Assembly: GCF_003287975.1 (NCBI RefSeq)
Contig: NZ_QMKQ01000026.1
Location: 1-52,916 of the forward strand
Source of the DNA: Arthrobacter sp. AQ5-05
Lineage (GTDB): Bacteria; Actinomycetota; Actinomycetes; Actinomycetales; Micrococcaceae
Direction of reading: 5' to 3'
DNA length: 52,916 bases
A program made the translations under genes and the position numbers. The notes beneath the pieces were generated by a model, which ran no database searches, was not told where the DNA came from, and was given only the letters and a program-made list of their open reading frames with translations. Of the stretch, positions 12,610 to 37,044 are shown piece after piece (position 1 is the stretch's first letter; each line of letters starts with the position of its first letter).

Positions 12610-12627
12610 ACCAAGCAAGTGCTAGGG
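12610..12627. promoter_or_regulatory. Shared palindromic operator, site A
   Basis: ACCAAGCAAGTGCTAGGG, part of the imperfect palindrome AACCAAGCAAGTGCTAGGGT, lies between the divergent SDR (12558) and echA20 (12663). It matches the sites at 22979, 28189 and elsewhere and resembles the KstR2-type motif. Regulator not identified. Confidence 0.65.
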
Positions 12628-12632
12628 TAAAA

Positions 12633-12650
12633 ATCAAGCAAACGTTAGGT
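12633..12650. promoter_or_regulatory. Shared palindromic operator, site B
   Basis: ATCAAGCAAACGTTAGGT starts 23 bp after site A, about two helical turns, and ends just upstream of the echA20 ribosome site. A protein bound here would block echA20 transcription. Same family as the other operator-like sites. Confidence 0.6.
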
Positions 12651-12662
12651 ACAGGAGTAAAA

Positions 12663-13409
12663 ATGGCCATCAAATCAGCAATGCACCACAACGGCATTCG
12701 CGTAGTCACCATGGATTACCCGCCGGTCAACGCACTTCCGGTAGCAGGATGGTTCGGCATCGGCGCGGCGATGGACGAAGCCAGCAAGGACCCAAACACC
12801 CGTGCGGTCATACTGCGCGCCGAAGGACGTGGCTTTAATGCGGGCGTTGACATCAAGGAAATGCAGTCAACGGATGACTTCAACGCCATTCTTGGCGCAA
12901 ACCGTGGCTGCTACGCGGCATTCAAATCAATCTACGAGTGCGCGGTCCCGGTCATTGCCGCTGTCCACGGGTTCTGCCTGGGTGGCGGAGTTGGCTTGGT
13001 TGGCAACTCCGACACCATCATCGCCAGTGACACCGCCTACTTCGGTGTCCCCGAAGTTGATCGCGGAGCGTTGGGTGCGGCAACCCACTTGGCTCGCCTG
13101 GTTCCCGCACACATGTTGCGCACCTTGTACTTCACCAGCCGCAATATCTCCGCACAGCGCTTGGCCGAACTTGGTTCCGTTGCTGAAATCGTGTCCCCGG
13201 ACAAACTCGACGAGACCGCGTTCGCCTACGCCGGCGAGATCGCGTCCAAGGATCCCCGGGTCATGCGCGCCGCCAAGGAGGCCTTGAACTGCATAGACCC
13301 GATCGACGTCAACAAGAGCTACCGCTTCGAGCAGGGATTCACCTTCGAGCTCAACCTCGGCGGTGTCGCCGATGAACTACGCGATGACTTCGTCGCCACC
13401 GGCGCCTAG
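12663..13409 (+). CDS. echA20: EchA20-type crotonase, HIP ring-D hydrolase
   Basis: 248 residues with an AGGAG ribosome site. Crotonase fold with the oxyanion-hole segments GFNAGVDIKEM and HGFCLGGGVGLVGNSD. The stretch YFGVPEVDRGALGAATHLARL closely resembles mycobacterial EchA20 (Rv3550, about 247 residues). Known role: opening of ring D of the HIP-derived CoA thioester, producing the cyclohexenone (COCHEA-CoA) substrate of IpdAB. Followed at 8 bp by ipdA and then ipdB and ipdC, the same order as Rv3550-Rv3553, which makes the assignment strong. Confidence 0.92.
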   Translation: MAIKSAMHHNGIRVVTMDYPPVNALPVAGWFGIGAAMDEASKDPNTRAVILRAEGRGFNAGVDIKEMQSTDDFNAILGANRGCYAAFKSIYECAVPVIAAVHGFCLGGGVGLVGNSDTIIASDTAYFGVPEVDRGALGAATHLARLVPAHMLRTLYFTSRNISAQRLAELGSVAEIVSPDKLDETAFAYAGEIASKDPRVMRAAKEALNCIDPIDVNKSYRFEQGFTFELNLGGVADELRDDFVATGA

Positions 13410-13417
13410 GAGCCACC

Positions 13418-14263
13418 ATGACCAGCAAAGTCATTGATTCGAGCACCCTGGCCGATCTCTTTGGTGACGGAATGACCATCGGCATTGGCGGCTGGGGCGC
13501 CCGACGCAAACCCATGGCCCTGGTCGCGGCACTCATCCGTTCCGGGGCCCGCGATCTGCGCATTGTCAGCTTCGGCGGACCGGATGTGGGCATGCTCTGT
13601 GCCACCGGCCAGGTCAAAGAGGTGGTTCACGGTTTTGTCACACTTGATTCGATTGCCGTGGAACCACACTTCGCCGCTGCCCGGCAAACCGGCAAAATCC
13701 AAACCACCGAGCTTGATGAGTCAATGCTGGTTTCCGGACTGCGCGCGGCGGGACGACGGCTTCCCTTTGAGGTCACGCGCACCGGGCTCGGCTCGGACAT
13801 ACTGACCGCCAATCCGCAGATTCGCACCATCGATTCCCCCTATGATGACGGCGAAACCCTTGTGGCCATGCCGGCCGTGGAATTGGATCTGGCCCTGATC
13901 CATCTAAACCGTGCCGACCACCTAGGCAACGGACAATGCCTGGGTCCGGATCCCTATGTTGACGATCTCTTTGCCCGCGCCGCCAAGCGCACCATCCTCA
14001 GTGCCGAATCGGTTGTCAGCACCCGCGAACTGACCCAGGGCCACCACCCCTCCACACTCCTGCTCAACCGCACCATGGTGGACCATGTTTTTGAGGCACC
14101 CGGCGGGGCGCATTTCACCACCTGCCTTCCCGATTACCCACGCAACGAAGAATGGCAACGCGCCTACGCGCACTCCGCCGGCAGTCCGGCGCTGTGGGAA
14201 GAATTTCGGACCCGGCATATCGACAATGAGCATGTCTGGGGCGCGGAGGCCGGCAATGACTGA
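13418..14263 (+). CDS. ipdA: COCHEA-CoA hydrolase subunit IpdA (first copy)
   Basis: 281 residues, CoA-transferase class I fold. IpdAB hydrolyses the last steroid ring (ring C) of COCHEA-CoA rather than transferring CoA. The N-terminal loop is GMTIGIGGWGARRKPM (18-33), followed by VSFGGPDVGML and GFVTLDSI. The acidic LDESM segment holds Glu101, near the Glu reported as essential in Rhodococcus IpdA (about 105; equivalence inferred). An AGGAG site precedes the ATG, and the end overlaps ipdB by 8 bases. A paralogous pair lies at 28239-29871. Confidence 0.92.
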   Translation: MTSKVIDSSTLADLFGDGMTIGIGGWGARRKPMALVAALIRSGARDLRIVSFGGPDVGMLCATGQVKEVVHGFVTLDSIAVEPHFAAARQTGKIQTTELDESMLVSGLRAAGRRLPFEVTRTGLGSDILTANPQIRTIDSPYDDGETLVAMPAVELDLALIHLNRADHLGNGQCLGPDPYVDDLFARAAKRTILSAESVVSTRELTQGHHPSTLLLNRTMVDHVFEAPGGAHFTTCLPDYPRNEEWQRAYAHSAGSPALWEEFRTRHIDNEHVWGAEAGND

Positions 14264-15023
14264 ACCAACGACGGACCACGTGACACGCGCGGAGATCGCG
14301 GTCACCGCCTGCAGCAATCTATTCCGCGGGCAACGCGACATATTGGCCAGCCCTGCCGGGACCATCCCCACCATCGGTGCACGGCTGGCAGCCCTCACGC
14401 ACGCTCCGGATCTCATGCTCAGCGACGGTGAATCCACGATCTACGCGGGCGTGCCGACGCTGGAACACCAAGGGGTTCGGGGCGGTTATCTGCCTTATCG
14501 GGAGCTCTTTGAACTGATTGCCGCCGGTAAACGCCATGTGGTGATGGGTGGTGCGCAGATCGACCGCGAGGGAAACCACAACTTCTCTGCCATCGGCGAG
14601 CACGCCAAGCCGCACCGGCAGCTTTTGGGCTCGCGTGCCGCGGCCACCAACACCATCAACCACAGAACAAGCTACTGGATCCCCAAGCACAGTCGGCGCT
14701 CCATGGTCCAACAGGTGGATTTTGTGACGGGCGTCGGGCGCACGCGCGCCGAAAAGGCAGGAAAGGGCGCCGCCCGCTTCCACCAAGTGCACCGGGTGGT
14801 CAGCAACCTTGGGGTCTTTGACTTCAACGGACCGGGACACACCATGTCCCTGCTATCCATCCACCCCGGGGTCACGGTCGAAGAAGTCATTGAGTCCACC
14901 GGATTCGCACTCGACATCCCGGCCGACGTGCAAACCACCCGCCTGCCCAATCGGCAGGAACTACAACTGATTCGCGAGGTCCTGGACCCGCTCCAACGCA
15001 GAGAACAAGAGGTTCGATCTTGA
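14256..15023 (+). CDS. ipdB: COCHEA-CoA hydrolase subunit IpdB (first copy)
   Basis: 255 residues from the ATG at 14256, overlapping ipdA by 8 bases and preceded by GGAGG; longer in-frame readings inside ipdA are not needed. CoA-transferase beta-type subunit with GTIPTIGARLAALTHAPDLM (about 30-49), the DGES segment, and the GGAQIDREGNHNFSAIG motif. It forms a heterotetramer with IpdA in known systems. Same length as the second-copy IpdB. Coupled to ipdC through a TTGA overlap. Confidence 0.92.
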   Translation: MTEPTTDHVTRAEIAVTACSNLFRGQRDILASPAGTIPTIGARLAALTHAPDLMLSDGESTIYAGVPTLEHQGVRGGYLPYRELFELIAAGKRHVVMGGAQIDREGNHNFSAIGEHAKPHRQLLGSRAAATNTINHRTSYWIPKHSRRSMVQQVDFVTGVGRTRAEKAGKGAARFHQVHRVVSNLGVFDFNGPGHTMSLLSIHPGVTVEEVIESTGFALDIPADVQTTRLPNRQELQLIREVLDPLQRREQEVRS

Positions 15024-16111
15024 GCACCACCAACCGCATTCGCACCGCACTGACCGAGCTGACCGGCGTTGACCATCCCATCGTGCAGACCGGGATGGGC
15101 TGGGTGGCCGGGCCGAAGCTGGTCACCGCCACGGCCGAGGCCGGCGGGCTGGGTATCCTCGCTTCGGCCACCATGACCTACGCGGAACTCGAAAAGGCAA
15201 TCATCGAGACCAAGAGCCGCACCGACAAGCCCTTCGGGGTGAACCTGCGTGCAGATGCCGCCGATGCCATGGATCGGGTGAAGCTGCTGGTCAAACACCG
15301 CGTCAAGGTGGCATCCTTTGCGCTGGCCCCCAAACGCGAGCTGATCGACAAGCTCAAGGAAAACGACGCAGTGGTCATCCCCTCGGTCGGGTTGCCCCGG
15401 CACGCGGAAAAGGTGGCTTCGTGGGGAGCCGACGCGGTCATGATCCAGGGCGGCGAGGGCGGCGGGCACACCGGCGCCACCCCCACCACCTTGTTGCTGC
15501 CCACCGTGTTGGATGCCGTGGATATCCCGGTCATAGCCGCCGGCGGTTTCTTCGACGGACGCGGCCTGGCCGCGGCGCTCTCTTACGGTGCCGCCGGCAT
15601 CGGCATGGGCACCCGCTTCCTGCTGACCAGCGACAGCGCGGTGCCCGAACACATCAAGCGCCGCTACCTGGAATTCGGGCTCGATGGAACCGTCGTCACG
15701 GCCAAGGCAGATGGCATGCCGCACCGCTTGCTACGCACAGAGTTCATTGATGGGTTGGAATCCGGGTCATCGATCGGCCGCCTGTTGGCCACCCTGCGAC
15801 GCACCACCCAGTTCAAGGAGCTCTCCGGGCAGTCCTGGGCTGCGCTAGTTCGTGACGGGTTCTCCATGAAGCGCAGCAGCGGACGTAGCTGGGGTCAGAT
15901 GATGCTTGCCGCCAACACCCCCATGCTGCTCAAGGCGGGACTGGTGGACGGCGACACCCAGGCCGGCATGTTGGCCGCCGGCCAGGTCGTTGGTGTCATT
16001 GACGATTTGCCAAGCTGCGAGCAACTGGTGGACCGGATCATTGATGAGGCGGTTGCGCGGCTTTCAGCGGTGGCAGGCGGAGCTCAAAACCGCAAAGGAG
16101 CGGTCGCTTAA
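15020..16111 (+). CDS. ipdC: IpdC, FMN-dependent NMO/2-nitropropane dioxygenase-like enzyme
   Basis: 363 residues with a TTG start whose TGA overlap couples it to ipdB; AGAGG lies upstream. FMN-binding TIM barrel of the nitronate monooxygenase family with QTGMGWVAGPKLVTATAEAG near the N-terminus, the phosphate-binding IQGGEGGGHTG (about 149-159) and IAAGGFFDGRGLAAALSYGA. Length and position match Rv3553. Reported to act on hydroxylated HIP-CoA intermediates before ring-D opening. It ends the echA20-ipdABC operon; the next 509 bases hold no clear gene. Confidence 0.9.
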   Translation: MSTTNRIRTALTELTGVDHPIVQTGMGWVAGPKLVTATAEAGGLGILASATMTYAELEKAIIETKSRTDKPFGVNLRADAADAMDRVKLLVKHRVKVASFALAPKRELIDKLKENDAVVIPSVGLPRHAEKVASWGADAVMIQGGEGGGHTGATPTTLLLPTVLDAVDIPVIAAGGFFDGRGLAAALSYGAAGIGMGTRFLLTSDSAVPEHIKRRYLEFGLDGTVVTAKADGMPHRLLRTEFIDGLESGSSIGRLLATLRRTTQFKELSGQSWAALVRDGFSMKRSSGRSWGQMMLAANTPMLLKAGLVDGDTQAGMLAAGQVVGVIDDLPSCEQLVDRIIDEAVARLSAVAGGAQNRKGAVA

Positions 16112-16620
16112 TCTTGCATGAGATTCATCAGTGACCAACCAGAATGGCCCTCGCCGCCCGCGCTGGTGAACGATGCTGCGAAATGGGAAGGAACCAAATG
16201 TGCAAAGAGCGAATACTGCCCGGAGCATTACCAGTCCGCCTGCACAGGGAATTTTCATTGCGTCCCATTCCTGCAAGCCCTGACGTCGGCAAGGACCTAT
16301 CAAAGTCGTTCAAGGCGATTGCATGTTCTTCCGATGCGCACAACCATGAGTTGCCAGCACGCGCACTTGCTGGCTGTATGTGAGGCGGCTTTTGATAGCA
16401 GGTATGGGACGTCCCGAAGCAGTGCGACAACCTGCCCACGAAGTGATGATACCTGGCGTCCACGACGCTGCGAGATTACACACATATGTGACTTGTCGAT
16501 TTTTGATCCGGTCACTTCACAGACCTTCCATCCACTGAACGAGACCTGGCCCGACAACGCCCGAGGTGCACTGCTAGCCTGCGAGACATTTGTGGTTCGT
16601 TTACGAGAGGCTGTTCTTCC
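16112..16620. other. Non-coding stretch before the FAD dehydrogenase
   Basis: No convincing gene. A plus-strand open frame covers most of it but matches no family and runs into the next gene out of frame. A perfect 10-bp palindrome CACATATGTG at 16481-16490 is the only notable motif. It looks like imported or decayed DNA between ipdC and the FAD gene, fitting an insertion boundary. Confidence 0.4.
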
Positions 16621-19113: not shown

Positions 19114-19119
19114 AAGCAA

Positions 19120-19783: not shown

Positions 19784-20935
19784 TTAGAGCCGTTCGATGA
19801 TGGTGACATTGGCCTGACCGCCGCCTTCACACATCACCTGCAGGCCGTAACGCCCACCGGTGCGCTCGAGTTCGTTCAGCAGCGTGGTCATTAAACGGGT
19901 GCCGGTGGCACCAATCGGGTGGCCCAGCGCGATGCCTCCACCGTTGACGTTGACCTTGCTGCGGTCAATGCCAAGCTCCTGCATCCAGGCCAGCACCACC
20001 GGGGCAAACGCCTCGTTGCATTCAAAAAGGTCGATCTCATCAACACCCATGCCGGCTCGTTCCAGCGCGTACTTGGTCGCGCGGATTGGACCGGTGAGCA
20101 TCCAGACCGGATCATCGGCACGCACCGAGATGTGGTGGATGCGGGCGCGCGGCTTCAGCCCGTGCTCGTCGACGGCTTTTTGCGAGGCGATCAGCATGGC
20201 GCTGGCACCGTCGCAAATCTGCGCGGCCACCGCAGCGGTCAACCGGCCGCCCTCCGAGAGCGGATCCAGCGACGCCATCTTCTCCAGGGTGGTCCCCCGG
20301 CGGATGGTTTCATCCTGCTCCAGTCCATTGAGCGGAACGATTTCTGCATCAAAACGGCCCTCGTCTGCAGCAGTTGCGGCACGCTGGTGGCTTTCGAGTG
20401 CAAACTGTTCCATGGTCTCGCGGGCAACGTCCCATTTTTCCGCGATCATTTCCGCGGCGCGGAACTGGGAGACTTCCTGGTCCCCATACCTGGCCACCCA
20501 GCCCGGGGACTCGGCAAACGGGGTGGTGAATCCGAAATCGGAACCGGCGATCATGGCGGCGGAAATCGGGATTGCGGACATGTTCTGCACGCCCCCGGCA
20601 ATGATCAGATCCGCTGTTCCGGACATGACGCCCTGCGCCGCGAAGTGCACCGACTGCTGGCTGGAACCGCACTGGCGGTCGATGGTCACCCCCGGAACAT
20701 GGTCCGGCAGGCCGGCGACCAGCCACGCGGTACGGGCAATGTCGCCCGCCTGCGACCCGAGGGTGTCGGTGCACCCGAAGATCACGTCGTCAACCGCACC
20801 AGGATCGACTCCGGTGCGTTCCATGAGCGCGGAAATCACGTGTGCGCCAAGGTCGGCGGAGTGGATCTGCGCCAGGGAGCCGCCGCGGCGTCCAACCGGG
20901 GTACGTACAGCATCAATAATGTAGGCTTCACTCAT
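19784..20935 (-). CDS. fadA6: FadA6-type thiolase of HIP degradation
   Basis: 383 residues. It resembles mycobacterial FadA6 (Rv3556c) along its whole length: AYIIDAVRTPVGRRGG at the start, active-site Cys89 in VTIDRQCGSSQQ, SGTADLIIAGGVQNMS, NEAFAPVVLAWM, the GHPIGATG His motif, and MCEGGGQANVTIIERL at the end. It carries out thiolytic cleavage of open-chain CoA thioesters formed after ring-C hydrolysis. Last gene of the fadE30-ipdF-fadA6 operon, 13 bp after ipdF. Its 3' side borders the mobile-element scar. Confidence 0.93.
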   Translation of the reverse strand: MSEAYIIDAVRTPVGRRGGSLAQIHSADLGAHVISALMERTGVDPGAVDDVIFGCTDTLGSQAGDIARTAWLVAGLPDHVPGVTIDRQCGSSQQSVHFAAQGVMSGTADLIIAGGVQNMSAIPISAAMIAGSDFGFTTPFAESPGWVARYGDQEVSQFRAAEMIAEKWDVARETMEQFALESHQRAATAADEGRFDAEIVPLNGLEQDETIRRGTTLEKMASLDPLSEGGRLTAAVAAQICDGASAMLIASQKAVDEHGLKPRARIHHISVRADDPVWMLTGPIRATKYALERAGMGVDEIDLFECNEAFAPVVLAWMQELGIDRSKVNVNGGGIALGHPIGATGTRLMTTLLNELERTGGRYGLQVMCEGGGQANVTIIERL

Positions 20936-20948
20936 TGTTCTTGCTCCT

Positions 20949-21752
20949 TTATGCCTGTTGGCTGCTCACCGGGACAACTTCACCGGTCATGTATGAGGAA
21001 TAGTCACTGGCCAAAAACACCATGACATTGGCGATTTCCCAGGGTTCGGCCGCCCGGCCAAAGGCCTCACGGGAGGTCAGCTGCTCAAGCAGCTCCTCGG
21101 AGGTGACCTTGGCCAGGAACGGGTGCATGGCCAAGGACGGAGCGACCGCGTTGATGCGGATGCCATGCGGTGCAACGTCCATGGCCGCGGAACGGGTCAG
21201 AGCCATGACGCCGGCCTTGGCCGCGGCGTAGTGGGCCTGGCCTTCCTGGGCACGCCAACCAATGACCGAAGCGTTGTTGATGATCACGCCCTTGGTGTTG
21301 TTCTTGACCATGCGCTGGCTTGCAGCACGCACCGAGCGGAAGGTCCCGGTCAGCGTGACGTTCAGGACCTTGTCCCACTGCTCGTCTTCCATCTCCAGGA
21401 TGGAGGCGGTGCCGCCCAGCCCGGCATTGTTGATCATGACATCAACCCCGCCGGCTTCCTCCGCGACGTCCAAGAGCGCCTGGACCTGGGCTTCGTCGGT
21501 GACATCGCATACTGCGAAACGCACCCGCTCGGCACCGAATTCCGCACCCAGCTCGGTGGCAGAGGCCTCGAGACGTCCAGCGTGGGTGTCACCCAAAACC
21601 ACCAGTGCGGCGCCTTCTTCGAGGCAGCGGCGCGCGGCGGCGGCGCCGATTCCGGCACCCGCGGCGGCGGTGATCACCACGCGGCGGCCGGCGAGCAGGC
21701 CATGGGCCTTGACGTAGTCGGGAGCTGGTTGTGCAATGCGTGTCACGGTCAT
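20949..21752 (-). CDS. ipdF: IpdF-type SDR, hydroxy-HIP-CoA dehydrogenase
   Basis: 267 residues. Short-chain dehydrogenase with the cofactor motif TAAAGAGIGAA (about 28-38), the NNAG motif and a YAAAK catalytic pair (about 175-179). In Mycobacterium and Rhodococcus the SDR beside fadE30 (Rv3559c) is IpdF, which oxidises the 5-hydroxyl of the HIP-CoA intermediate. The ATGA overlap with fadE30 and the 13-bp gap to fadA6 support one transcript. The assignment is mainly by neighbourhood plus overall resemblance. Confidence 0.87.
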   Translation of the reverse strand: MTVTRIAQPAPDYVKAHGLLAGRRVVITAAAGAGIGAAAARRCLEEGAALVVLGDTHAGRLEASATELGAEFGAERVRFAVCDVTDEAQVQALLDVAEEAGGVDVMINNAGLGGTASILEMEDEQWDKVLNVTLTGTFRSVRAASQRMVKNNTKGVIINNASVIGWRAQEGQAHYAAAKAGVMALTRSAAMDVAPHGIRINAVAPSLAMHPFLAKVTSEELLEQLTSREAFGRAAEPWEIANVMVFLASDYSSYMTGEVVPVSSQQA

Positions 21753-22978: not shown

Positions 22979-22996
22979 ACCAAGCACTTGTTTGGT
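22979..22996. promoter_or_regulatory. Shared palindromic operator, site C (exact KstR2-type match)
   Basis: ACCAAGCACTTGTTTGGT. The first 14 bases, ACCAAGCACTTGTT, fit the published KstR2 consensus AnCAAGnnCTTGnT exactly. The whole forms a near-perfect 20-bp palindrome with its flanking bases. Located between divergent fadE30 and the enoyl-CoA hydratase-fadE31/32/33 operon, both of which belong to the KstR2 regulon in M. tuberculosis. Confidence 0.75.
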
Positions 22997-23055
22997 TAGT
23001 CTAGTCCCAGGCAAGTTTTCCAGTTGACCAAGTGAGGCAGGAAGGGAGCGAAACG

Positions 23056-26086: not shown

Positions 26087-26093
26087 GAGCGGC

Positions 26094-28188: not shown

Positions 28189-28206
28189 ACCAAGCGAGCG
28201 CTAGGT
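28189..28206. promoter_or_regulatory. Shared palindromic operator, site D
   Basis: ACCAAGCGAGCGCTAGGT is centred in the 20-bp imperfect palindrome AACCAAGCGAGCGCTAGGTT. A possible -10 (TATTAT, 28208-28213) of the ipdA2 promoter begins 2 bp after it, a repressor-like position. It serves the divergent SDR and ipdAB second copy. Confidence 0.7.
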
Positions 28207-28238: not shown

Positions 28239-29111
28239 ATGCCTGACAAACGAATAGAACTCAGTGATGCGGTTGCGTCGATTGAGTCCGGAATGACCAT
28301 CGGCATCGGTGGCTGGGGATCACGGCGCAAGCCCATGGCAATCGTTCGCGAATTGCTGCGCAGCGACGTCAAGGACCTCACCGTGGTATCGCTTGGTGGC
28401 CCGGATGTGGGGCTGCTGGTGGCTGCGGGCAAGGTACGCAAGCTGATTTACGGCTTCGTCACACTGGACAGCATCCCGCTGGATCCGCTGTTCACGGCAG
28501 CCCGCGAACGCGGCGAGCTTGAGCTGCAGGAATACGACGAGGGTATGTTTGTCACCGGGCTGCGTGCCGCAGCAAACCGGCTTTCCTTCCTTCCCACCCT
28601 GGCAGGAATCGGGTCGGATGTGCTTGCCGCAAATCCGCATCTCAAGACCATCAAGTCCCCGTACTCGGACGATGAATACGTGGCGGTCCCGGCCATCACC
28701 ATGGATGTTGCCTTGATCCACGCCAACCGTTCCGACACAGCCGGGAACATCCAGTTCCTGGGACCGGACCCGTACTTCGACGACCTGTACGCGATGGCCG
28801 CAACCCGGACCTTTGTCAGCACCGAAAAGATCGTTCCCACCGAGAACCTGCTCGACGAAGGATCCTTCCACACCCTGATGCTCAGCCGCATGTACGTCAC
28901 CGGGGTCATCGAGACCCCAAAGGGCGCGCATTTCACCACCTGCGAGCCCGATTACGGTCGCGACGAGCTCTTCCAGAAGCACTATGCGGCCTCGGCCAAG
29001 GACCCGGCGGCCTGGGAGGCTTTCACCGCGCAGTTCCTCACGGGCGATGAAGCAGCCTTCCAAGCAGCAGTTGAACGTTTCCACGCAGAACAGGAGAAAT
29101 CCCTTGTCTAA
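28239..29111 (+). CDS. IpdA paralogue (second copy)
   Basis: 290 residues, CoA-transferase class I fold. It shares with the first IpdA the GMTIGIGGWGSRRKPM loop, SLGGPDVGLL, YGFVTLDSI, and the YDEGM segment with Glu101, plus PKGAHFTTCEPDYGRDE near the end. It has a longer C-terminal tail. The differences across the middle are too many for a recent duplication. The partner IpdB-like subunit follows with an 8-base overlap, exactly as in the first pair. It could hydrolyse a variant ring (another methylation or hydroxylation state, such as bile acid-derived HIP analogues), or be the main enzyme. Substrate cannot be read from sequence. Confidence 0.88.
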   Translation: MPDKRIELSDAVASIESGMTIGIGGWGSRRKPMAIVRELLRSDVKDLTVVSLGGPDVGLLVAAGKVRKLIYGFVTLDSIPLDPLFTAARERGELELQEYDEGMFVTGLRAAANRLSFLPTLAGIGSDVLAANPHLKTIKSPYSDDEYVAVPAITMDVALIHANRSDTAGNIQFLGPDPYFDDLYAMAATRTFVSTEKIVPTENLLDEGSFHTLMLSRMYVTGVIETPKGAHFTTCEPDYGRDELFQKHYAASAKDPAAWEAFTAQFLTGDEAAFQAAVERFHAEQEKSLV

Positions 29112-29871
29112 CGACGTCACCATTGCCGAGATCTGCGTTGCAGCATGCTCGGACATCTACCGCGAGTCCGGTGAGTTGCTGGCCCATGCCGTGGGCATTG
29201 TCCCAACCATTGGCGCACGCCTGGCCAAGCTCACCCACTCGCCGGACATCATCCTCAGCGACGGAGAGGCCTTCATGATGAGCGAACCGCCGGCACTGGG
29301 CAAGTCCGCGGCGCACGGTGGAACCATCGAAGGCTGGGCGCCTTTTAGCCGCATCTTTGACATCGTTGCCACGGGCCGCCGCCAGAGCATCATGGGCGCC
29401 AGCCAGATCGACCAGTACGGAAACCAGAACATCTCGTTGATCGGCGACTGGAAGAAGCCCAAGCGCCAGCTCATCGGAGTGCGCGGGGCACCCGGAAACA
29501 CCGCCAACCACCGCGTGGACTACTGGATAGCCCGACACGGCGCACGCTTGTTTGTTGAGTCGGTGGACATGGTTTCCGGCGTGGGCAACGACCGGGCCAA
29601 GGCAGCAGGTCTCAAACACCACCACCTGGGTGTCATCATCACCAACCTTGCGGTGCTGGGTTACGACGAAAGCGGCCGAATCAAGGTCCTTTCGGTACAC
29701 CCGGGCGTAGACCCGCAGGAAGTCACCGACAACACCGGCTTCCCCCTGGAGGCCTCAAAGGCGCCGGAGACCCGCATCCCAAGCGACGAGGAACTGCGCC
29801 TCATCCGTGAGGTCATCGATCCACGCGCGGCCCGCAACCGCGAAGTGCCGATACCACAGCCGGTCGGCTAG
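29104..29871 (+). CDS. IpdB paralogue (second copy)
   Basis: 255 residues from a TTG at 29104 preceded by AGGAG, overlapping the ipdA paralogue by 8 bases. It has GIVPTIGARLAKLTHSPDII, SDGEAFMM, MGASQIDQYGNQNISLIG and the C-terminal VHPGVDPQEVTDNTGFPLE segment. Same length as the first IpdB. A strong terminator at 29885 closes the operon, so the pair forms a complete two-gene unit under operator D. Confidence 0.88.
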   Translation: MSNDVTIAEICVAACSDIYRESGELLAHAVGIVPTIGARLAKLTHSPDIILSDGEAFMMSEPPALGKSAAHGGTIEGWAPFSRIFDIVATGRRQSIMGASQIDQYGNQNISLIGDWKKPKRQLIGVRGAPGNTANHRVDYWIARHGARLFVESVDMVSGVGNDRAKAAGLKHHHLGVIITNLAVLGYDESGRIKVLSVHPGVDPQEVTDNTGFPLEASKAPETRIPSDEELRLIREVIDPRAARNREVPIPQPVG

Positions 29872-30069: not shown

Positions 30070-31290
30070 CTAGTTCAAGCGCTCCAGCACCAATGCCATG
30101 CCTTGGCCGCCGGCCACGCACATGGTTTCAACTGCGAACTGTTCGTCGCGTTCCCGCAGGGCATTGATTGCGGTGGTGGTCATGCGTGCGCCGGTCATGC
30201 CAAACGGGTGGCCCAGTGCGATCGCGCCGCCATTCACGTTGACCTTCTCCGGATCGATCCCGATTTCGTCGATCGAGGGCAACACCTGGGCCGCAAAGGC
30301 CTCGTTGAGTTCCATGATGTCCATGTCCTTGATCGACATCCTTGCGTTGGAAAGCGCGCGACGCACCGCCTCCACGGGGCCCAGGCCCATCAGCTCCGGT
30401 GTCATCGCCGCCACTCCGGTGGAAACGATGCGGGCCAAGGGCTTGAGCCCCAGTTCGTTGGCCTTGGTGTCGCTCATGATCACCAGTGCCGCCGCGCCGT
30501 CGTTCAACGGGCAGCAGTTGGCTGCGGTCACGGTTCCGTGTTCGCGGAACACCGGCTGCATTCCCGCCAGCTTCTCCAACTGCACTCCGGCACGTGGCCC
30601 GTCATCGGTTGATACAACGCTTCCATCGGCAAGCGTGACCGGGGTGATGTCCTTGGCCCAGAACCCGCGGGCCGCCGCGGCCTCCGCTTTGTGGTGGCTG
30701 TGCACCGCCCACTCGTCCTGTGCCGCACGTGAAACGTTGCGCAACTGTGCAACGTTCTCGGCGGTATCCCCCATGGCGATGTAGATATCCGACAGTTCCC
30801 CCTTGAGCCGGGGATCGTTCCAGCTCAAGGTGGGATCGGCGGCCAGCGCTGCGGTGCGTTCCATCGCTGCCGTGAATGCCGGGTTTTTGGTGTCCGGCAT
30901 GCCGTCGGACTTGCCCGCGCCGAAGCGAGAAACGGTTTCCACGCCCGCGGAAATGAAGGCGTCTCCCTCGCCGGCCTTGATGGCGTGGAACGCCATGCGG
31001 GTGGTCTGCAGGGACGATGAGCAATAGCGGTGCACGGTAGTTCCCGGCACCGAATCGAGCCCGAGCTGCATGGCCACCATGCGAGCAATGTTGTAGCCCT
31101 GCTCGCCGGCGGGCTGGGCGCAGCCCATCATCAAGTCGTCAATGGTGCTGGCATCAAGTTCAGGTACCGCGGCAAGTGCCGCCTGCACCATCTGTGCCGC
31201 CAGGTCGTCGCCGCGCATTTCACGCAAGGACCCCTTGAATGCTCGTCCGATCGGCGAACGAGCCGTGGAAACGATTACTGCCTCAGCCAT
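30070..31290 (-). CDS. Acetyl-CoA acyltransferase (thiolase)
   Basis: 406 residues. Standard thiolase with STARSPIGRAFKG at the start, Cys90 in HRYCSSSLQTTRMAF, NEAFAAQVLPSID, GHPFGMTGAR and CVAGGQGMALVLERL. The nucleophile context CSSS replaces the usual CGSG/CGSS. It differs from FadA6 at 19784 and does not look like FadA5, so it is a third type acting on another CoA ester. It overlaps the SDR gene by one base (TGATG). Being co-transcribed with an SDR suggests successive beta-oxidation steps, dehydrogenase then thiolase. Confidence 0.88.
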   Translation of the reverse strand: MAEAVIVSTARSPIGRAFKGSLREMRGDDLAAQMVQAALAAVPELDASTIDDLMMGCAQPAGEQGYNIARMVAMQLGLDSVPGTTVHRYCSSSLQTTRMAFHAIKAGEGDAFISAGVETVSRFGAGKSDGMPDTKNPAFTAAMERTAALAADPTLSWNDPRLKGELSDIYIAMGDTAENVAQLRNVSRAAQDEWAVHSHHKAEAAAARGFWAKDITPVTLADGSVVSTDDGPRAGVQLEKLAGMQPVFREHGTVTAANCCPLNDGAAALVIMSDTKANELGLKPLARIVSTGVAAMTPELMGLGPVEAVRRALSNARMSIKDMDIMELNEAFAAQVLPSIDEIGIDPEKVNVNGGAIALGHPFGMTGARMTTTAINALRERDEQFAVETMCVAGGQGMALVLERLN

Positions 31291-32105
31291 CAGTGTGCTC
31301 CTTCTACTGCTAGTTCAAGTGGTTTCAAAACTTCGGCGTTGGGAGTGTGGGCCAGGAACGCCGGCCATTCGCCGCCGCCATCGACGTCAAGCACTGCGCC
31401 GGTGATATGTGCTGACAGATCCGAGGCGAGCATGACGCAGGCTGCCCCGATATCACTCGGGGTGGCCAATTGGCCGCGCGGGATGGTTGCCGCAACATTG
31501 GCGTAGCTTTCCTCATCGCCGTAGTGGTCCACGGCGCCCTCTGTCGCAACCAATCCACAGCTCACGGCATTCACCCGAATATGTGGCGCCCATTCAACGG
31601 CGAGGCTGGCCGTGAGGCTCTCCAAGGCTGCCTTGGCCGCACCGTAAACCGCCGTCCCGGGGCTGGGCCGGCGGGCGCTGATGGAGGTGATGTTCACGAT
31701 CGAGCCCTTGTCCGGCTGTCGCAGCATGATCGGCTGCACAGCGTTGGCCACATGGGCGGCCGACAAGAAGTTCAATTCCGTGATTGCCTGGTGGTAGCGG
31801 GCCGAGCCTTCTTCAAAGCGGCCGAACGGCGAACCTCCGGCGTTGTTCACCACTACGTCAATACGGCCCCGGCGCTGCTCGATATCCGCCACCCAGGCTT
31901 GGACCTGTTCGGCTTTGCGCACGTCCACAACGCTGAAATGCACGGAGTCGCTTCCGGCGGGGTGCTCCTTTTCGGGAAAACTGCGCCCGCAGATCTCCAC
32001 CACTGCGCCGGCGTCAAGGAACGCCTGGACAATCCCCGCGCCCACGCCGCGGGCGCCGCCTGTCACGAGCACTACGCGCTCCTTGAAATCAATAACGATC
32101 GACAT
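31290..32105 (-). CDS. Short-chain dehydrogenase coupled to thiolase
   Basis: 271 residues, SDR with TGGARGVGAGI (about 15-25), VNNAGGSPFG, ITSISARRPSPGTAVYGAAK (Tyr-x-x-x-Lys near 154-158) and VDGGGEWPAF. Possible counterpart of Rv3549c-like SDRs of the mycobacterial HIP region, by neighbourhood only. Probably oxidises a 3-hydroxyacyl-CoA that is then cleaved by the coupled thiolase. An AGGAAGGA site lies before the ATG; operator-like site E is 40 bp upstream. Confidence 0.82.
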   Translation of the reverse strand: MSIVIDFKERVVLVTGGARGVGAGIVQAFLDAGAVVEICGRSFPEKEHPAGSDSVHFSVVDVRKAEQVQAWVADIEQRRGRIDVVVNNAGGSPFGRFEEGSARYHQAITELNFLSAAHVANAVQPIMLRQPDKGSIVNITSISARRPSPGTAVYGAAKAALESLTASLAVEWAPHIRVNAVSCGLVATEGAVDHYGDEESYANVAATIPRGQLATPSDIGAACVMLASDLSAHITGAVLDVDGGGEWPAFLAHTPNAEVLKPLELAVEGAH

Positions 32106-32144
32106 CGTTTACCTATCCTTCCTCACCGCGATACTGTTGGCTTT

Positions 32145-32162
32145 ACCAAACAAACGCTTGTT
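32145..32162. promoter_or_regulatory. Shared palindromic operator, site E
   Basis: ACCAAACAAACGCTTGTT, a weaker member of the operator family, also contains the inner palindrome AAACAAACGCTTGTTT. It lies 40 bp before the SDR-thiolase operon. Confidence 0.5.
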
Positions 32163-32197
32163 TTATTTTGGTTGTGGTTTCGTGCGGATGAAAACCG

Positions 32198-32242
32198 TGC
32201 CTAGGTGGGGCCGCCGCAATCGGCGGTTACCCTACCTAGGCA
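32198..32242 (-). terminator. Terminator of the ABC importer operon
   Basis: A compound stem (TGCCTAGGTGGGGCCGCCG pairing with CGGCGGTTACCCTACCTAGG...) begins 6 bases after the LivF-like stop codon on the minus strand, insulating the transporter from the SDR-thiolase promoter. Confidence 0.8.
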
Positions 32243-32248
32243 GGAAAG

Positions 32249-32983
32249 CTACGAAGCCGTGCCTACACCAAAGTAGGCATCTTGAAGCTGGTCAAGGCTG
32301 ATCGTAGATGCGGGCCCCGCGAGAATTGTTCGCCCCATGTCAACAACCGAGACTTCATCCGAAATTTCCAGTGATTCCTGTACAGCTTGCTCCACAAGAA
32401 GGATGCCAAGGCCCATGGCTTTAAGCGCGTGCACGCGTTCCATCACCTCTTTGACAATCGATGGGGCCAAACCCTGGCTTGGTTCATCAAGAATAAGCAG
32501 CTGCGGCTTAGCCATTAGCGCTTGGCCGATGGCCAACATTTGTTGTTGACCACCAGACATGCTGGCGGCAGGTAACGCACGCTTGTCCCCCAAAATCGGG
32601 AAGAATTCGTAGATCTCACTTACTGCCTCCAGCAGTGCCCGTTTCTTCAAACGCGTCGAGAACCCACCCAGAAGCAAGTTCTGTTCAATGGTGAGTTCAT
32701 GAAACACTCGCTTGCCTTCCTGCACATACGACATTCCCCGAGCTACTCTTCGGTGAGCCGGAACTTCACCAAGCTTTGCACCAAGGTAACGGACTTCGCC
32801 ACCATATGTTTTGTTCAATCCCGTTATGGCACGCAGCGTTGTGGTCTTGCCTGCACCATTGCGGCCAAGCAAAACTGTAATTTCGCCACGGCGAACCGTC
32901 AGAGATACATCCCTCACGACTTTCAGATCACCATAACCGGTCTGCAAATGTTCAACTTCAAGCAATAGCTCGCCGCTAGTCAT
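32249..32983 (-). CDS. LivF-type ABC transporter ATPase
   Basis: 244 residues. Walker A GRNGAGKTT (about 40-48), signature MSGGQQQMLAIGQAL (about 137-151), Walker B LLILDEPSQGLAP, as in LivF of the branched-chain amino acid (HAAT) importer family. Works with the fused permease-ATPase. It overlaps that gene by 8 bases. Last gene of livK-livH-livMG-livF, followed by the hairpin at 32198. Confidence 0.93.
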   Translation of the reverse strand: MTSGELLLEVEHLQTGYGDLKVVRDVSLTVRRGEITVLLGRNGAGKTTTLRAITGLNKTYGGEVRYLGAKLGEVPAHRRVARGMSYVQEGKRVFHELTIEQNLLLGGFSTRLKKRALLEAVSEIYEFFPILGDKRALPAASMSGGQQQMLAIGQALMAKPQLLILDEPSQGLAPSIVKEVMERVHALKAMGLGILLVEQAVQESLEISDEVSVVDMGRTILAGPASTISLDQLQDAYFGVGTAS

Positions 32984-34799
32984 TACCCGCTCCTATCAAA
33001 TTCGAGCCATCCGCGTCATTGATCACACCGAGGTATTCCTCCATCACGCGAGGGTTCCTCTCAATCTCAGCTGGCGTCCCGTGTGCCATGACGGTGCCCT
33101 GCGCCAACACGTAGATCTCGTCTGCGAGGCGGAGAACCAACTGGAAATTATGCTCGACAATGACAACAGTCAGTCCTGCATCGCGAAGTCGATTCACTAG
33201 ATCTGCCAAAACATCGAGTTCGTCTTCGTCCAACCCGGAAGCCACCTCATCAAGCAAGATCACTTTAGGGGCTCCGATTAGGCTGCGGGCCACTTCAAGC
33301 AAGCGGCGATTGCCCAGTGGTAACGCGTCAGCGTCTGAATCGCGTTGCTCTCCAAGGCCCACGAGATTTAGCACTCTTTCGGCTTCCAACCGGTCCTCAC
33401 GTCGGATGCGCTTAAACTTCGGCGTGCGAAGTATTGCTTGCAGAATCGACACACGTTCCGTGGCGTAGCGTCCGGCTTCCACCGCCTCGATAACACTTAG
33501 CTTCTCAGGAATATTGGGCGTTTGGAACGTACGAGAAACCCCAGCACGAGCAACACGATACGACGACAGTCCGTGAATTTCCTCAGTATCAAGAGCGATG
33601 CTGCCCTCGTCCGTAGAGTAGTAGCCGGAGATCATATTCAAGAGTGTCGTTTTGCCTGAACCATTCGGACCAATGATTGCCGTTACAGCTCCTGGCTTTG
33701 CTTCAACACTGACCTGCGAGAGTGCCTGGTTACCACCAAATGATTTCGAAATCGATTCAACCATTAGTCGTGCACCCTGAATAGGAGCGACTTCGGCCGT
33801 AGCTGCGGGAACCAGTTGAGAACCGACACGTTCCCGGGCCAGCTTGTCAAGCTTCCTGACCAGATTCTGCCCCAATCCAGCGATGCCTCCGCTGAAAAGC
33901 ACTCCCCCGGACAATAGAAACAGGCCAGTAATGATTAGACCGTATTCCTGGAAATTGGTCGCCTGATTCATTCCGAACTGCAGAACGGCGGCTCCAATCA
34001 ATGCACCATAGATGCTGGCTGATCCTCCGAAAACGGATGCTGCAAGCACCGTCATCGCGACTGTGAACGTAAACGCCTCCGGGGATATGTACATATCAAG
34101 GTTGGCGAAAAGGACACCAGCTAAGCCCGCGGGCAACGACCCAAGCGCATAAGCAGTAAGTTTCATCCGGAATACCGAGATACCCACCGAAGAAGCAAGT
34201 ACCGGGCTCTGCTTGAGCACACGTAGAGCAGTTCCATGGCGTGACACAACGATGTTTCTCATGCAAGCGAACCAGACGATCGTTACAACGACTACCAAAA
34301 GGTAATACTGTTTTTCGCTCATGAGCTGCCCAAAGAGCGTTGGGGGAACGATTCCCGTTAGTCCATTACGCCCGCCCGTTGATTCCTTGAAAATCGATAG
34401 GATATCGGGCACCAAAAGGATCAAGAAGAACGACGTCATGGCCAACGACCAGCCGCCTAGCCGCAGACCAGGAATTCCGGAGATGAGTCCGACTCCAAGT
34501 GCTACGAGAGCCCCGGCAAGAAGCTGGATCCAAATTTCAGTGACACCAGCTTTGCTAATGAGACCCGCAGTGTAAGCACCCGCTGCATACATGGCGATGT
34601 GCCCCATTGCCAGTTCACCGGCGTAGCCTAAATTGAGGTTCAATCCCGAAACAATCAAAGCGAGCATGAGTGAGAGCATCACCTGTCGCGTCATACCGTA
34701 CGACATACCCAAGAAAGGCATGAATAGAAGTACCACGCCCACGCCCACTGGCAAGATCCATGTGGGTAGCGCACGAGCTTTCAGCCACAGCGATAACAC
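32976..34799 (-). CDS. Fused LivM permease-LivG ATPase
   Basis: 607 residues from a GTG start. Residues about 1-310 are a polytopic LivM-type permease (Gly/Ala-rich membrane segments, GLNLNLGYAGELAMGHIAMY near 53-72). Residues about 345-600 are a LivG-type ATPase: Walker A GPNGSGKTT, signature LPLGNRRLLEVARSL, Walker B VILLDEVASGLDEDE. Separate genes are usual; fusion is known in some actinobacteria but not the standard. It imports an organic acid with LivH, LivF and the binding lipoprotein. The context (HIP genes and operator F) favours a steroid-derived acid. Confidence 0.9.
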   Translation of the reverse strand: MLSLWLKARALPTWILPVGVGVVLLFMPFLGMSYGMTRQVMLSLMLALIVSGLNLNLGYAGELAMGHIAMYAAGAYTAGLISKAGVTEIWIQLLAGALVALGVGLISGIPGLRLGGWSLAMTSFFLILLVPDILSIFKESTGGRNGLTGIVPPTLFGQLMSEKQYYLLVVVVTIVWFACMRNIVVSRHGTALRVLKQSPVLASSVGISVFRMKLTAYALGSLPAGLAGVLFANLDMYISPEAFTFTVAMTVLAASVFGGSASIYGALIGAAVLQFGMNQATNFQEYGLIITGLFLLSGGVLFSGGIAGLGQNLVRKLDKLARERVGSQLVPAATAEVAPIQGARLMVESISKSFGGNQALSQVSVEAKPGAVTAIIGPNGSGKTTLLNMISGYYSTDEGSIALDTEEIHGLSSYRVARAGVSRTFQTPNIPEKLSVIEAVEAGRYATERVSILQAILRTPKFKRIRREDRLEAERVLNLVGLGEQRDSDADALPLGNRRLLEVARSLIGAPKVILLDEVASGLDEDELDVLADLVNRLRDAGLTVVIVEHNFQLVLRLADEIYVLAQGTVMAHGTPAEIERNPRVMEEYLGVINDADGSNLIGAGND

Positions 34800-34801
34800 T
34801 A

Positions 34802-35659
34802 TTACACCGTCCGTTCTTTGCGACGGGTAAAGAGACCCGTCGGTTTCGCCATGAGGATGACGACCAGAATGATAAACACGCTCAAATTTGCGAAATCCGC
34901 ACCAATGTAACGGCTGGCAAGCGCTTCGGCGAGTCCGACAATGAGTCCGCCGGCCAGGGTTCCCGAAAGCGAGCCAAAGCCGCCGATTGCCAGGACCACG
35001 AAGCCTTTCAGCGCCAATGAGGCACCGAGTGTGGCCACCGCATATGTTTTTGGCCCTACGAACAACCCCATGGCTCCGGCCAGAACACCGGTAAAGGCGA
35101 AAGCCAGGAAGGCGAAACGGCGTACGTCAACGCCACGCAGCTGTGCCGCCTCGCGGTTCTCGCTCATTCCCATGAGAGCGATCCCAACCAAACTGTGCTT
35201 TGCAAACTGGGTGAGCGCAACGACCAACAAGATAACAACTAGAACTAAAGCGATTTCTACTGGATAGACATTTCCACCGAGTACCTCGACAACCCCATCG
35301 CCAGCAAAGAACGGAACTCGGTAGGGCTCGCCACCCCAGATCAATTGAGCGACACCTTGAAGGATGATCGAGGCTCCGAGGGTTGTGACCAAAAGATTAT
35401 GCATATCCTTTACCGGCCGGATAGCGATTCGTTCTTCCAGGGCTGCGATTGCACCAATAATTATGGCCGCACCAATCCCCACCAGCCACCAGTGCAGACC
35501 TAGGACGACGATACCCAGATAGGTAATGAATGCACCCAACATCATGAGAGAGGCTTGCGCGAAGTTGAATGTTTTTTGCGAGAGAAACACGATGTTGTAG
35601 CCGATGGCAACAAGAGCGTAGACCGCACCGATAGCCATGCCAGACCAGATAATCGTCAT
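34802..35659 (-). CDS. LivH-type ABC permease
   Basis: 285 residues from the ATG at 35659; an in-frame extension upstream is not supported by a ribosome site. Integral membrane protein of about eight segments with GMAIGAVYALVAIGYNIVF at the start and GSLSGTLAGGLIVGLAEAL near the C-terminus, both hallmarks of LivH. The second transmembrane subunit of the importer, 2 bp before the livMG fusion. Confidence 0.92.
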   Translation of the reverse strand: MTIIWSGMAIGAVYALVAIGYNIVFLSQKTFNFAQASLMMLGAFITYLGIVVLGLHWWLVGIGAAIIIGAIAALEERIAIRPVKDMHNLLVTTLGASIILQGVAQLIWGGEPYRVPFFAGDGVVEVLGGNVYPVEIALVLVVILLVVALTQFAKHSLVGIALMGMSENREAAQLRGVDVRRFAFLAFAFTGVLAGAMGLFVGPKTYAVATLGASLALKGFVVLAIGGFGSLSGTLAGGLIVGLAEALASRYIGADFANLSVFIILVVILMAKPTGLFTRRKERTV

Positions 35660-35695
35660 CGAATGTCCTGTTCTAGTGTCATTTTTGGGTGTCAA

Positions 35696-35730
35696 CCGCA
35701 TCGTGGGTGCCGAAGCCACCCACGATGCGG
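35696..35730 (-). terminator. Intercistronic hairpin after the binding-protein gene
   Basis: Perfect 14-bp arms (CCGCATCGTGGGTG and complement) around 7 bases, between the lipoprotein gene and livH, with no T run. Likely a partial terminator or RNA-stabilising stem giving more binding protein than permease, common in ABC operons. Confidence 0.65.
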
Positions 35731-35736
35731 CATCGA

Positions 35737-36954
35737 TTACTGGAACTGTCCGTTGACCAGTTTCGACGGCGAGATAAAGACGAAGTGCTCAGGTGCCATG
35801 TGTGGTGCATGTGCGTCCTTGGCAAATGAGTACTTTGGAATCATCTGCGTGTTGGCGGCTTCCTGCACCTTATTGTCGACGAGTGCGGCCGACAAGGACT
35901 CGGCGTCCAGCGAGTTCGCCGACTCTGCTGCAGCCTTCAAGAGCCACATGGAGTCATAGTTGTAGGCAAGAATGAGCGATGAACCGATCGTTCCGGTCTC
36001 TGCCATCAGCTTGACCGCGGCGTTTAGTTTCTCGTTCTTCGGATCGTACTTCGTGCTTTGGAAGACCTGCATCGTGAGATTCTCGACTTGGCTCGTACCG
36101 AGGACTCCCGTCGGAGGCTCGGTGGCAATCAGGCTGGTCGCCGCCACCGAATTGTTGCCGATTACCGGGATATCCCACCCGAGCTTTTCGATTCCCTGCA
36201 ATACATATGCCAGTGGTGCCCCGTAAGAATCCAACACGAGGACATCGGGATTTCCGCTCTTGAGCCGCTCCAGCTGCGGCGTCATGTCGAGCGACGCGTT
36301 GTCATATCCTTGATTTCCGCTAACGGTCAGCCCAGAGGCCGCGAACGTAGATTCCGTTAGCTTGCCAAAGAGTTCTCCGGTTGCACTGGAACCATGGAGC
36401 ACTGCAACATTCTGGTGCTTTTGATCCTTTATCTGCGGCACGAATCCATCGATGTAGTCCTGAACGCTGGGTGAAAGATCGAAGTTGTACGGACTCACGC
36501 CCGGGTCTGCGGAGGTGGCCGTTGGCCCAATGTTGAATGACAGGATTTTATTCTGGGTCAAGATTGGCAAAATAGCTTCGGCAACCGTCGAAGGCCCGGA
36601 GTTCATGACAGCTACAGGCTTGTTTCCGGCGGACAGCTTTTCGCGCAGTTTTGTGACGGCAACCGTTGGATCCGCCCGGTCATCGATAACTTCGATTTCA
36701 ATTTGCTTGCCCAGGATTCCACCGTCTGCATTTACAGCTGCCACCGATGCCTGTGCGGCAGTAACCGACGTTGCCGCATTGTTGGCCAGAACTCCCTCAG
36801 CACCAATGCCGCCGAGAACGATTACCTTAAGCGGACCATCCGGGTTGTTCTCGCCAGCAGCGGACGACGTGCTGCCTGCACATCCAGTCAGGGCCATGCC
36901 GGCTACTGCCAATGAAGCGACTACCAATTTTGCCTTTGTGCGACGCATGTACAC
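35737..36954 (-). CDS. LivK-type substrate-binding lipoprotein
   Basis: 405 residues (start ATG 36954, or the second Met at 36948). Lipoprotein signal: basic MRRTKAK, hydrophobic VVASLAVAGMA and lipobox LTGC, with the lipid-modified Cys near residue 25. The mature part is a type I periplasmic-binding fold (leucine-binding-protein family) with VIDDRADPTVAVTKLREKL and DVLVLDSYGAPLAYVLQG. It is anchored outside the membrane and delivers ligand to the permeases. First gene of the importer operon, with operator-like site F 26 bp upstream. Ligand unknown; neighbours suggest steroid-derived carboxylates, as recalled for CamABCD in Rhodococcus jostii. Confidence 0.9.
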   Translation of the reverse strand: MYMRRTKAKLVVASLAVAGMALTGCAGSTSSAAGENNPDGPLKVIVLGGIGAEGVLANNAATSVTAAQASVAAVNADGGILGKQIEIEVIDDRADPTVAVTKLREKLSAGNKPVAVMNSGPSTVAEAILPILTQNKILSFNIGPTATSADPGVSPYNFDLSPSVQDYIDGFVPQIKDQKHQNVAVLHGSSATGELFGKLTESTFAASGLTVSGNQGYDNASLDMTPQLERLKSGNPDVLVLDSYGAPLAYVLQGIEKLGWDIPVIGNNSVAATSLIATEPPTGVLGTSQVENLTMQVFQSTKYDPKNEKLNAAVKLMAETGTIGSSLILAYNYDSMWLLKAAAESANSLDAESLSAALVDNKVQEAANTQMIPKYSFAKDAHAPHMAPEHFVFISPSKLVNGQFQ

Positions 36955-36979
36955 ACCTTTCAGTGTCCAGGAATTAGCA

Positions 36980-36997
36980 ACCTAACGCTTGCTACAT
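36980..36997. promoter_or_regulatory. Shared palindromic operator, site F
   Basis: ACCTAACGCTTGCTACAT; its reverse complement ATGTAGCAAGCGTTAGGT aligns with site B (ATCAAGCAAACGTTAGGT). It lies upstream of the ABC importer operon. Confidence 0.55.
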
Positions 36998-37023
36998 CGA
37001 GCATAAGGCCTACTCGTTCAGAT

Positions 37024-37044
37024 ACCAAGCATGCGTTTGCTTGG
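37024..37044. promoter_or_regulatory. Shared palindromic operator, site G
   Basis: Contains ACCAAGCATGCGTTTGCT and a 20-bp palindrome CCAAGCATGCGTTTGCTTGG. It lies 32 bp before the Tyr-less SDR and 27 bp from site F in the same divergent promoter region. Confidence 0.6.

Follow-up and report, generated by a model that had tools for sequence, protein, structure and literature searches.

A putative KstR2 regulon in the steroid ring-C/D cluster of Arthrobacter sp. AQ5-05, with operators before an ABC importer and a short-chain dehydrogenase that carries serine for tyrosine

The DNA analyzed here, referred to as the window, is a stretch of 52,916 nucleotides from Arthrobacter sp. AQ5-05; it is an entire contig (C26, NZ_QMKQ01000026.1), which terminates at position 52916. 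By its likeness to the published one, the gene cluster on it is the steroid ring-C/D cluster, or HIP cluster (HIP, 3aα-H-4α(3'-propanoate)-7aβ-methylhexahydro-1,5-indanedione). Seven related palindromes lie between its genes. These are very probably operators of the host's own KstR2, a TetR-type repressor encoded with a FadD3-like ligase on a second contig, C54; KstR2 would thereby control the HIP operons, the kstR2-fadD3 unit, and a divergent pair formed by an ATP-binding cassette (ABC) importer and a short-chain dehydrogenase/reductase (SDR), here SDR4.

Putative KstR2 operators and the kstR2 gene

All seven palindromes were found at the coordinates and in the orientations that a preliminary description of this DNA had given them. 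They are listed below with their ranks on a matrix of published KstR2 sites:

12610..12627, plus strand: putative KstR2-type operator, distal copy, in the divergent promoter of SDR1 and an enoyl-CoA hydratase gene; rank 5
12633..12650, plus strand: putative KstR2-type operator, second copy, in the SDR1 / enoyl-CoA hydratase promoter; rank 7
22979..22996, minus strand: putative KstR2-type operator in the fadE30 / echA divergent promoter, with an exact AnCAAGnnCTTGnT inside; rank 1
28189..28206, plus strand: putative KstR2-type operator in the divergent promoter of SDR2 and the second ipdA; rank 4
32145..32162, plus strand: putative KstR2-type operator upstream of the SDR3-thiolase operon; rank 2
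36980..36997, minus strand: putative KstR2-type operator, 26 bp before the ABC importer binding-protein gene; rank 6
37024..37041, plus strand: putative KstR2-type operator, 35 bp before SDR4; rank 3

The intergenic placement noticed at the outset was confirmed: all seven sites fall in the 12.9% of the window outside called genes, and the nearest start codon lies 13-40 bp from each of them, with gene starts set by open frames, family matches, and tblastn rather than by a gene finder. In an alignment of 30 chosen sites from the window and its relatives, column conservation spans positions 1-19, ACCAARCAARYGYTWGGTT. Because columns 5-18 of this alignment equal the 14-bp KstR2 palindrome, and the preceding ACCA also occurs in published sites, the 18-mer of the preliminary description is, judged by its letters, the KstR2 operator plus one arm of its extension (14-bp palindrome with the four-nucleotide ACCA).

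For M. smegmatis, M. tuberculosis, and R. jostii together, Kendall et al. 2010 (PMC3068626) give nine KstR2 sites, of which seven are distinct 24-mers; the three from M. tuberculosis are reported as positive in electrophoretic mobility shift assays. The M. tuberculosis site given there between Rv3549c and Rv3550 includes ACCAAGCAAGTGCTTG, which is close to window site 12610. A symmetric matrix was built from only the seven distinct published 24-mers, with 60% G+C assumed for all genomes, those of the distant family considered below included. Run over the window, it placed the seven sites at ranks 1-7, with scores of 27.4, 23.6, 22.0, 21.1, 15.9, 15.4, and 9.6. Across 200 random windows (first-order Markov), the seventh best place never exceeded 8.3, against 9.6 in the window; the best place averaged 11.2, with an extreme of 23.3. 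A scan of 84.7 kb elsewhere in the host genome, around TetR genes, gave 14.7 as its highest score. The preliminary description had stated that the site at 22979 fits the KstR2 motif exactly and the others less well: this holds on the 14-letter consensus but not on the 24-bp matrix of published sites, where all seven come first.

The same description found no ordinary KstR2 in the window; this is literally correct, for the sole reason that the contig stops at 52916. Contig C54 carries the gene: kstR2 occupies C54:6303-6887 and encodes a TetR-family product of 195 aa (P0001), whose best PDB matches are 2ibd, 4w97, and 4w1u at 3e-46 to 3e-43, all other chains scoring 9e-18 or worse. The entries 4w97 and 4w1u are named KstR2 in the PDB, and 2ibd is a protein that we take to be R. 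jostii KstR2. P0001 reads MLSGSLYHHF where these three chains read ILSGSLYHHF. The gene after kstR2 has the FadD3 family as its top NCBIfam match, at 631 bits, slightly short of the 657-bit cut-off. The window ends with an old yellow enzyme gene; beyond this gene, and still within the cluster, the relatives G005, G013, G001 (of the host's own genus), G036, and G085 carry kstR2. The window tail followed by C54 aligns to G005 in that order. By synteny, the gap between C26 and C54 would be about 0.28 kb, and kstR2 would start about 0.7 kb beyond the right end of the window. An eighth site, at C54:6963 just upstream of this TetR gene, is the top place of that contig, with 19.1 on the published matrix. 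KstR itself was rejected as the binder: its best match in the genome gave 30.2 bits, compared with a family cut-off of 280.

Conservation was counted in the 11 genomes with the cluster, host included, using a matrix of the window's seven sites at a threshold of 14. Sites 12610, 12633, 22979, and 28189 are each conserved in 11 of 11 genomes; site 32145 is found within 60 bp of SDR3 in eight, and sites 36980 and 37024 in six each. The kstR2-promoter site is present in all 11 on this matrix, in some just above the threshold; on the published matrix it scores 24.9 in G005, 22.4 in G327, and 19.1 on C54, with middling values of 13.4 to 10.5 in G001, G036, G085, G349, G321, and G013.

KstR2 itself, searched at 1e-40, was found in six of 395 genomes of the host's family; such searches over a family scored a limited set of candidates in each genome, at strict E-values. 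Five relatives of one genus (g53, G245 and G300 among them) carry a KstR2 homologue of 37-38% identity inside the site-bearing HIP locus, and the one that was checked has 2ibd and KstR2 as its best PDB matches. The g53 homologue adjoins the second CoA-transferase pair and not the far cluster end (L158-L171), and the operators there are nearly the same as in the host. We propose that the repressor in g53 diverged, or was replaced, with the operators kept. Outside the host's family, genome G650 has a KstR2 homologue (38%) among KstR2-like sites; these are weaker (12.8, 10.6, 10.5, and 9.1), yet no other place in 37 kb scores higher, and all four are intergenic.

Several of these values count against the assignment. 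Site 12633, at rank 7 with 9.6, stands barely above the next place, an in-gene one at 9.3, and narrower matrices give the sites ranks 1-6 and 8 (20 bp) or 1-5, 8, and 15 (14 bp). On the published matrix, the kstR2-promoter site reaches at least 13 in only four of 11 genomes, and it is weak in the g53 genomes G300 (5.5) and G245 (3.8).

The position of the operators supports the proposal of the preliminary description that one TetR-type repressor serves a shared HIP regulon from sites before the HIP operons, and that this regulon takes in a second ipdAB, SDRs, and a thiolase, along with the ABC importer and the SDR that lacks the Tyr. HIP-CoA is reported as the KstR2 effector (PMC7807495, PMC8399759). 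We infer that a KstR2 dimer would bind each operator, 13-40 bp from the nearest start, and block transcription of the ring-C/D (HIP) operons, kstR2-fadD3, and the importer/SDR4 pair. HIP-CoA, made by FadD3, would then release KstR2. An importer supplying HIP or a related acid would close a feed-forward loop of import, CoA activation, and derepression.

The importer and SDR4 behind operators

The last two operators of the window stand between these units:

32249..36954, minus strand: branched-chain-amino-acid-type ABC importer, comprising ATPase, permease-ATPase fusion, permease, and substrate-binding protein
37076..37843, plus strand: SDR4, with Ser replacing the catalytic Tyr

The importer has the binding protein, BPD_transp_2 permeases, and Liv-type ATPases of a branched-chain amino acid importer. 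SDR4 belongs to the SDR superfamily (adh_short_C2, 162 bits) and departs from classical SDRs in that the catalytic Tyr of YxxxK is a Ser. This Ser stands four residues before the Lys in all five SDR4 sequences, one of them a fragment, and no PDB chain matched SDR4 at 1e-30.

At 1e-60, the importer binding protein was found in three of the 395 family genomes, namely the host, G085, and G321, which represent three genera. In all three, its gene belongs to the HIP cluster and diverges from SDR4, and one or more sites lie between the two genes. At 1e-50, one other genome among 345 in the class, G650, had it, and at 1e-80 it was found in eight of 341 genomes of the family of G650 (a distant actinobacterial family, f35), at nine loci. 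In four of these nine loci (G650, G983, G990, and G1047b), HIP genes and a KstR2 homologue lie within the fetched stretch.

In 10 of 12 loci (three in Micrococcaceae and seven of the nine in f35), the 250 bp before the binding-protein gene contain a KstR2-like palindrome, with scores from 23.6 (G085) to 6.1 (G821); its distance to the gene is 49-60 bp in G650, G983, G990, G1047b, and G763. Gene starts in f35 are the starts of the matches, and G983 and G990 belong to one genus and share the same site. Palindrome presence was judged by eye at the best-scoring place; G871, with a score of 1.0, would pass a block-rank test and has no palindrome. G871 and G1021, the two loci with no palindrome within 250 bp upstream, have the most diverged binding proteins (40-41%). 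A second binding-protein gene in G1047 (L205-L206) has a strong KstR2-like palindrome before it (18.9), and no other importer gene was matched in its stretch.

SDR4 stands beside the importer in four of the 12 loci (host, G085, G321, and G821), and a fragment of it lies elsewhere in G1047b; at 1e-40, none was found in 19 of the 24 stretches scanned. The SDR4/importer pair of G821 has two palindromes between its genes, in a stretch with no HIP genes.

An alternative accepts the sites as KstR2 operators and leaves the importer and SDR4 outside the regulon: sites 36980 and 37024 would serve older neighbours, SDR3 and a thioesterase gene, and the cassette would merely sit there. The principal observation for it, and a point against KstR2 control of the cassette, is that the operator pair is kept in G005, G013, G001, and G036, all of which have neither the importer nor SDR4; in them the pair is located between SDR3 and the thioesterase gene. 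Also unfavourable to such control, the importer sites outside Micrococcaceae are low-scoring (6.1-9.4) in five of the seven loci with one. Set against this alternative, the operators lie 26 bp from the importer start and 35 bp from that of SDR4, the importer-SDR4 cassette occupies the same promoter in three genera, and 10 of 12 loci have a palindrome ahead of the binding protein; among these is a divergent SDR4/importer pair from another family, with two palindromes and with no HIP genes nearby. On balance, we consider the alternative unlikely.

With the importer and SDR4 placed inside the KstR2 regulon, their genomic context suggests that the importer probably takes up HIP or a related (hydrindane carboxylic) acid. 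Going further, we tentatively advance a fuller model, which seems to us possible though somewhat short of probable: a conserved importer dedicated to hydrindane acids (HIP, HIP lactone, or kin) would be under KstR2 control, as would a new SDR subfamily that has Ser for Tyr, and the hosts would scavenge ring-C/D intermediates excreted by other steroid degraders. Three Micrococcaceae genera would have retained the cassette, or exchanged it, at one and the same KstR2 promoter, and it would recur as a divergent pair with KstR2-like palindromes in the distant actinobacterial family.

By description, the importer resembles CamABCD of R. jostii RHA1, an ABC transporter that imports cholate-degradation intermediates; in the account of PMC8399759, CamABCD handles aromatised-A-ring metabolites and the MFS protein CamM handles perhydroindane ones. 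The regulon itself is of a known kind; operators fronting an importer and a divergent Ser-for-Tyr SDR appear new in the open-licence literature searched. The importer behind KstR2-type operators is a testable candidate for hydrindane-acid uptake in mid steroid breakdown.

The tandem TetR protein and the chance reading

The preliminary description had pointed to another possible binder within the window:

6058..7371, minus strand: tandem TetR protein, Mce3R-like in plan, with two TetR_N domains; disfavoured as the binder

In the alternative that follows from it, this protein would be the repressor at all seven promoters, either by itself or on sites that KstR2 also uses. It is encoded in the window, is linked to the cluster in six of 11 genomes, and, to the detriment of the KstR2 assignment, co-occurs with the sites in all 11: it was found in 11 of the 395 family genomes, namely the same six as KstR2 plus the five of g53. 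Moreover, the 18-bp sites lack symmetry about the 14-bp palindrome, and asymmetric sites are what the double TetR protein Mce3R is described as binding (PMC11667970).

Linkage argues the other way. Both proteins are present in all 11 genomes, and the sites are linked to KstR2 in every one, to the tandem TetR gene in six. In g53 the tandem TetR gene is at a separate locus (38.6-60 kb) with no site of at least 13 on the published matrix in any of the five genomes, and the sites are elsewhere, together with the KstR2 homologue. G650 combines KstR2 and KstR2-like sites with no full-length tandem TetR match (the best covers residues 3-207, in a 226-aa frame), and the published KstR2 sites alone are enough to find all seven. 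In the region that we take to be the recognition helix, the tandem TetR protein reads GVSASSIYWHF and GLPASSLYWFF, against LSGSLYHHF in the KstR2s. Repression by the tandem TetR protein is, we judge, distinctly improbable, and the earlier lead to it is not borne out. It is replaced by an assignment of regulator and operators for the whole steroid-ring cluster in Micrococcaceae.

The closest named relatives of the tandem TetR protein are in Arthrobacter sp. MYb227 (87%) and Paeniglutamicibacter gangotriensis (77%). It is like Mce3R, the double TetR repressor of M. tuberculosis, in having two TetR domains in one chain and a steroid context; the sequence similarity is weak (1.9e-07) and confined to the N-terminal domain. 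The 25-bp sites reported for Mce3R are non-palindromic (PMC11667970), unlike the palindromes of the window. For the protein's own operator, upstream regions aligned in 11 genomes gave no clear conserved palindrome.

At the IclR/hsaE divergent promoter, aligning all 11 genomes shows two other conserved elements, TTCACTGTACACCTCACTACAG (1877-1898) and ATCCCGCTCTCCGGGA (1929-1944); a near-copy of ATCCCGCTCTCCGGGA with one mismatch lies at 47826-47841 on the minus strand, between MFS3 and SDR5. The two elements may be operators of the IclR protein or of the tandem TetR protein. At 4816-6045 on the plus strand, an HsaB-like flavin reductase is fused to a stretch resembling an IclR effector domain (26 bits, cut-off 24); the fusion has no match to the IclR helix-turn-helix and is conserved beside the tandem TetR gene in relatives.

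The remaining question is whether palindromes of this kind arise by chance. None of the 119 loci compared contains the 18-letter consensus in exact form, so that mismatches or a matrix are needed. Allowing up to three mismatches, it gave 10 rows in the window versus 0.12 expected from shuffles; eight of these rows are the seven sites (22979 matches on both strands), and the other two, 10095 and 32466, are three-mismatch matches inside genes. The whole 4.65-Mb genome gave 15 rows. All five with at most two mismatches are in the window. Three of the ten with three mismatches belong to the seven sites (32145, 36980, and 22979 on its other strand), and one is on C54 before kstR2; the other six comprise the two in-gene rows of the window and four outside it, all four in frames of at least 200 codons. 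The preliminary description had named a motif equally common inside genes as grounds for abandoning the regulon; in the whole-genome consensus scan, this was not so for close matches.

A control pattern read backward gave 14 genome rows against 15 for the consensus, a further result on the unfavourable side. Since the control gives nearly as many, the genome-wide row total at three mismatches shows no enrichment; the enrichment shows in the close matches and in where they lie. Totals for consensus and control in the relatives were 9/16 in G001, 21/13 in G005, 10/13 in G013, 9/12 in G036, 14/11 in G085, 12/4 in G245, 8/1 in G300, 9/1 in G321, 7/3 in G327, and 8/5 in G349; across these ten genomes, 41 of 43 rows with at most two mismatches fall in the HIP locus. 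The 14-letter consensus with two mismatches had 45 matches in the window, against 16.8 expected, many of them inside genes, and was rejected as sole detector because it is too loose. Chance or generic promoter sequence could account for the looseness of the 14-letter consensus and for the 15 versus 14 genome rows, but is regarded as refuted by the window, genome, and relatives counts and by the conservation of four sites in 11 of 11 genomes.

Cluster genes and the published regulon

By gene family, the operons behind the operators are HIP genes:

7611..12558, minus strand: operon-like run of SDR1, MaoC-like protein, EtfB, EtfA, and cytochrome b561-type protein
12663..16111, plus strand: enoyl-CoA hydratase, CoA-transferase pair (ipdAB-type), and FabK-like protein (ipdC-type)
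19784..22918, minus strand: thiolase (fadA6-type), SDR (ipdF-type), and acyl-CoA dehydrogenase (fadE30-type)
23032..27206, plus strand: enoyl-CoA hydratase and three acyl-CoA dehydrogenases (fadE31-33/IpdE2-type)
28239..29871, plus strand: second CoA-transferase pair
30070..32105, minus strand: thiolase and SDR3

The ipd names are given by analogy with Rv3550-Rv3553. Locus comparisons with the relatives leave the identities for ipdB1, fadE33, and ipdB2 out of account, since the query translations of these three were in a wrong frame. The families identified in the window are hsaE/G/F-type proteins, the flavin-reductase/IclR-like fusion, tandem TetR, Etf, MaoC-like proteins, SDRs, and CoA-transferase pairs, together with a FabK-like protein, thiolases, and pimeloyl-CoA/IpdE2-type dehydrogenases.

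The KstR2 regulon of Mycobacterium and Rhodococcus, as PMC3068626 describes it, shares with the window the operator sequence, a site before kstR2, a position of kstR2 near the cluster, and the placing of sites in a few divergent promoters; in both, a site is found at the fadE30 promoter and at a promoter from which an SDR gene and echA20-ipdAB-ipdC diverge. The window has more operators than the three per genome given in that paper (seven, plus that of kstR2), and differs from the regulon described there in two promoters with two copies each, a second CoA-transferase pair, and an importer and Tyr-less SDR behind operators. The host also has fadD3 after kstR2, an arrangement unlike the one in that description. 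The survey PMC4810484 mentions two complete genomes that lack reciprocal matches to the greater part of any reference steroid cluster; one of them is Arthrobacter gangotriensis.

At about 18140-19100, where the FAD-binding protein is followed by the thiolase, broken transposase-like frames were noticed by eye; the frames tried had no Pfam match. In the HIP locus of G349 (L164), SDR1 and etfB each match in two pieces, which may reflect sequencing errors or frameshifts. G001 has an extra strong site, absent from the window, between MFS1 and the old yellow enzyme gene (L113, oriented position 35082), with a score of 22.4 on the published matrix.

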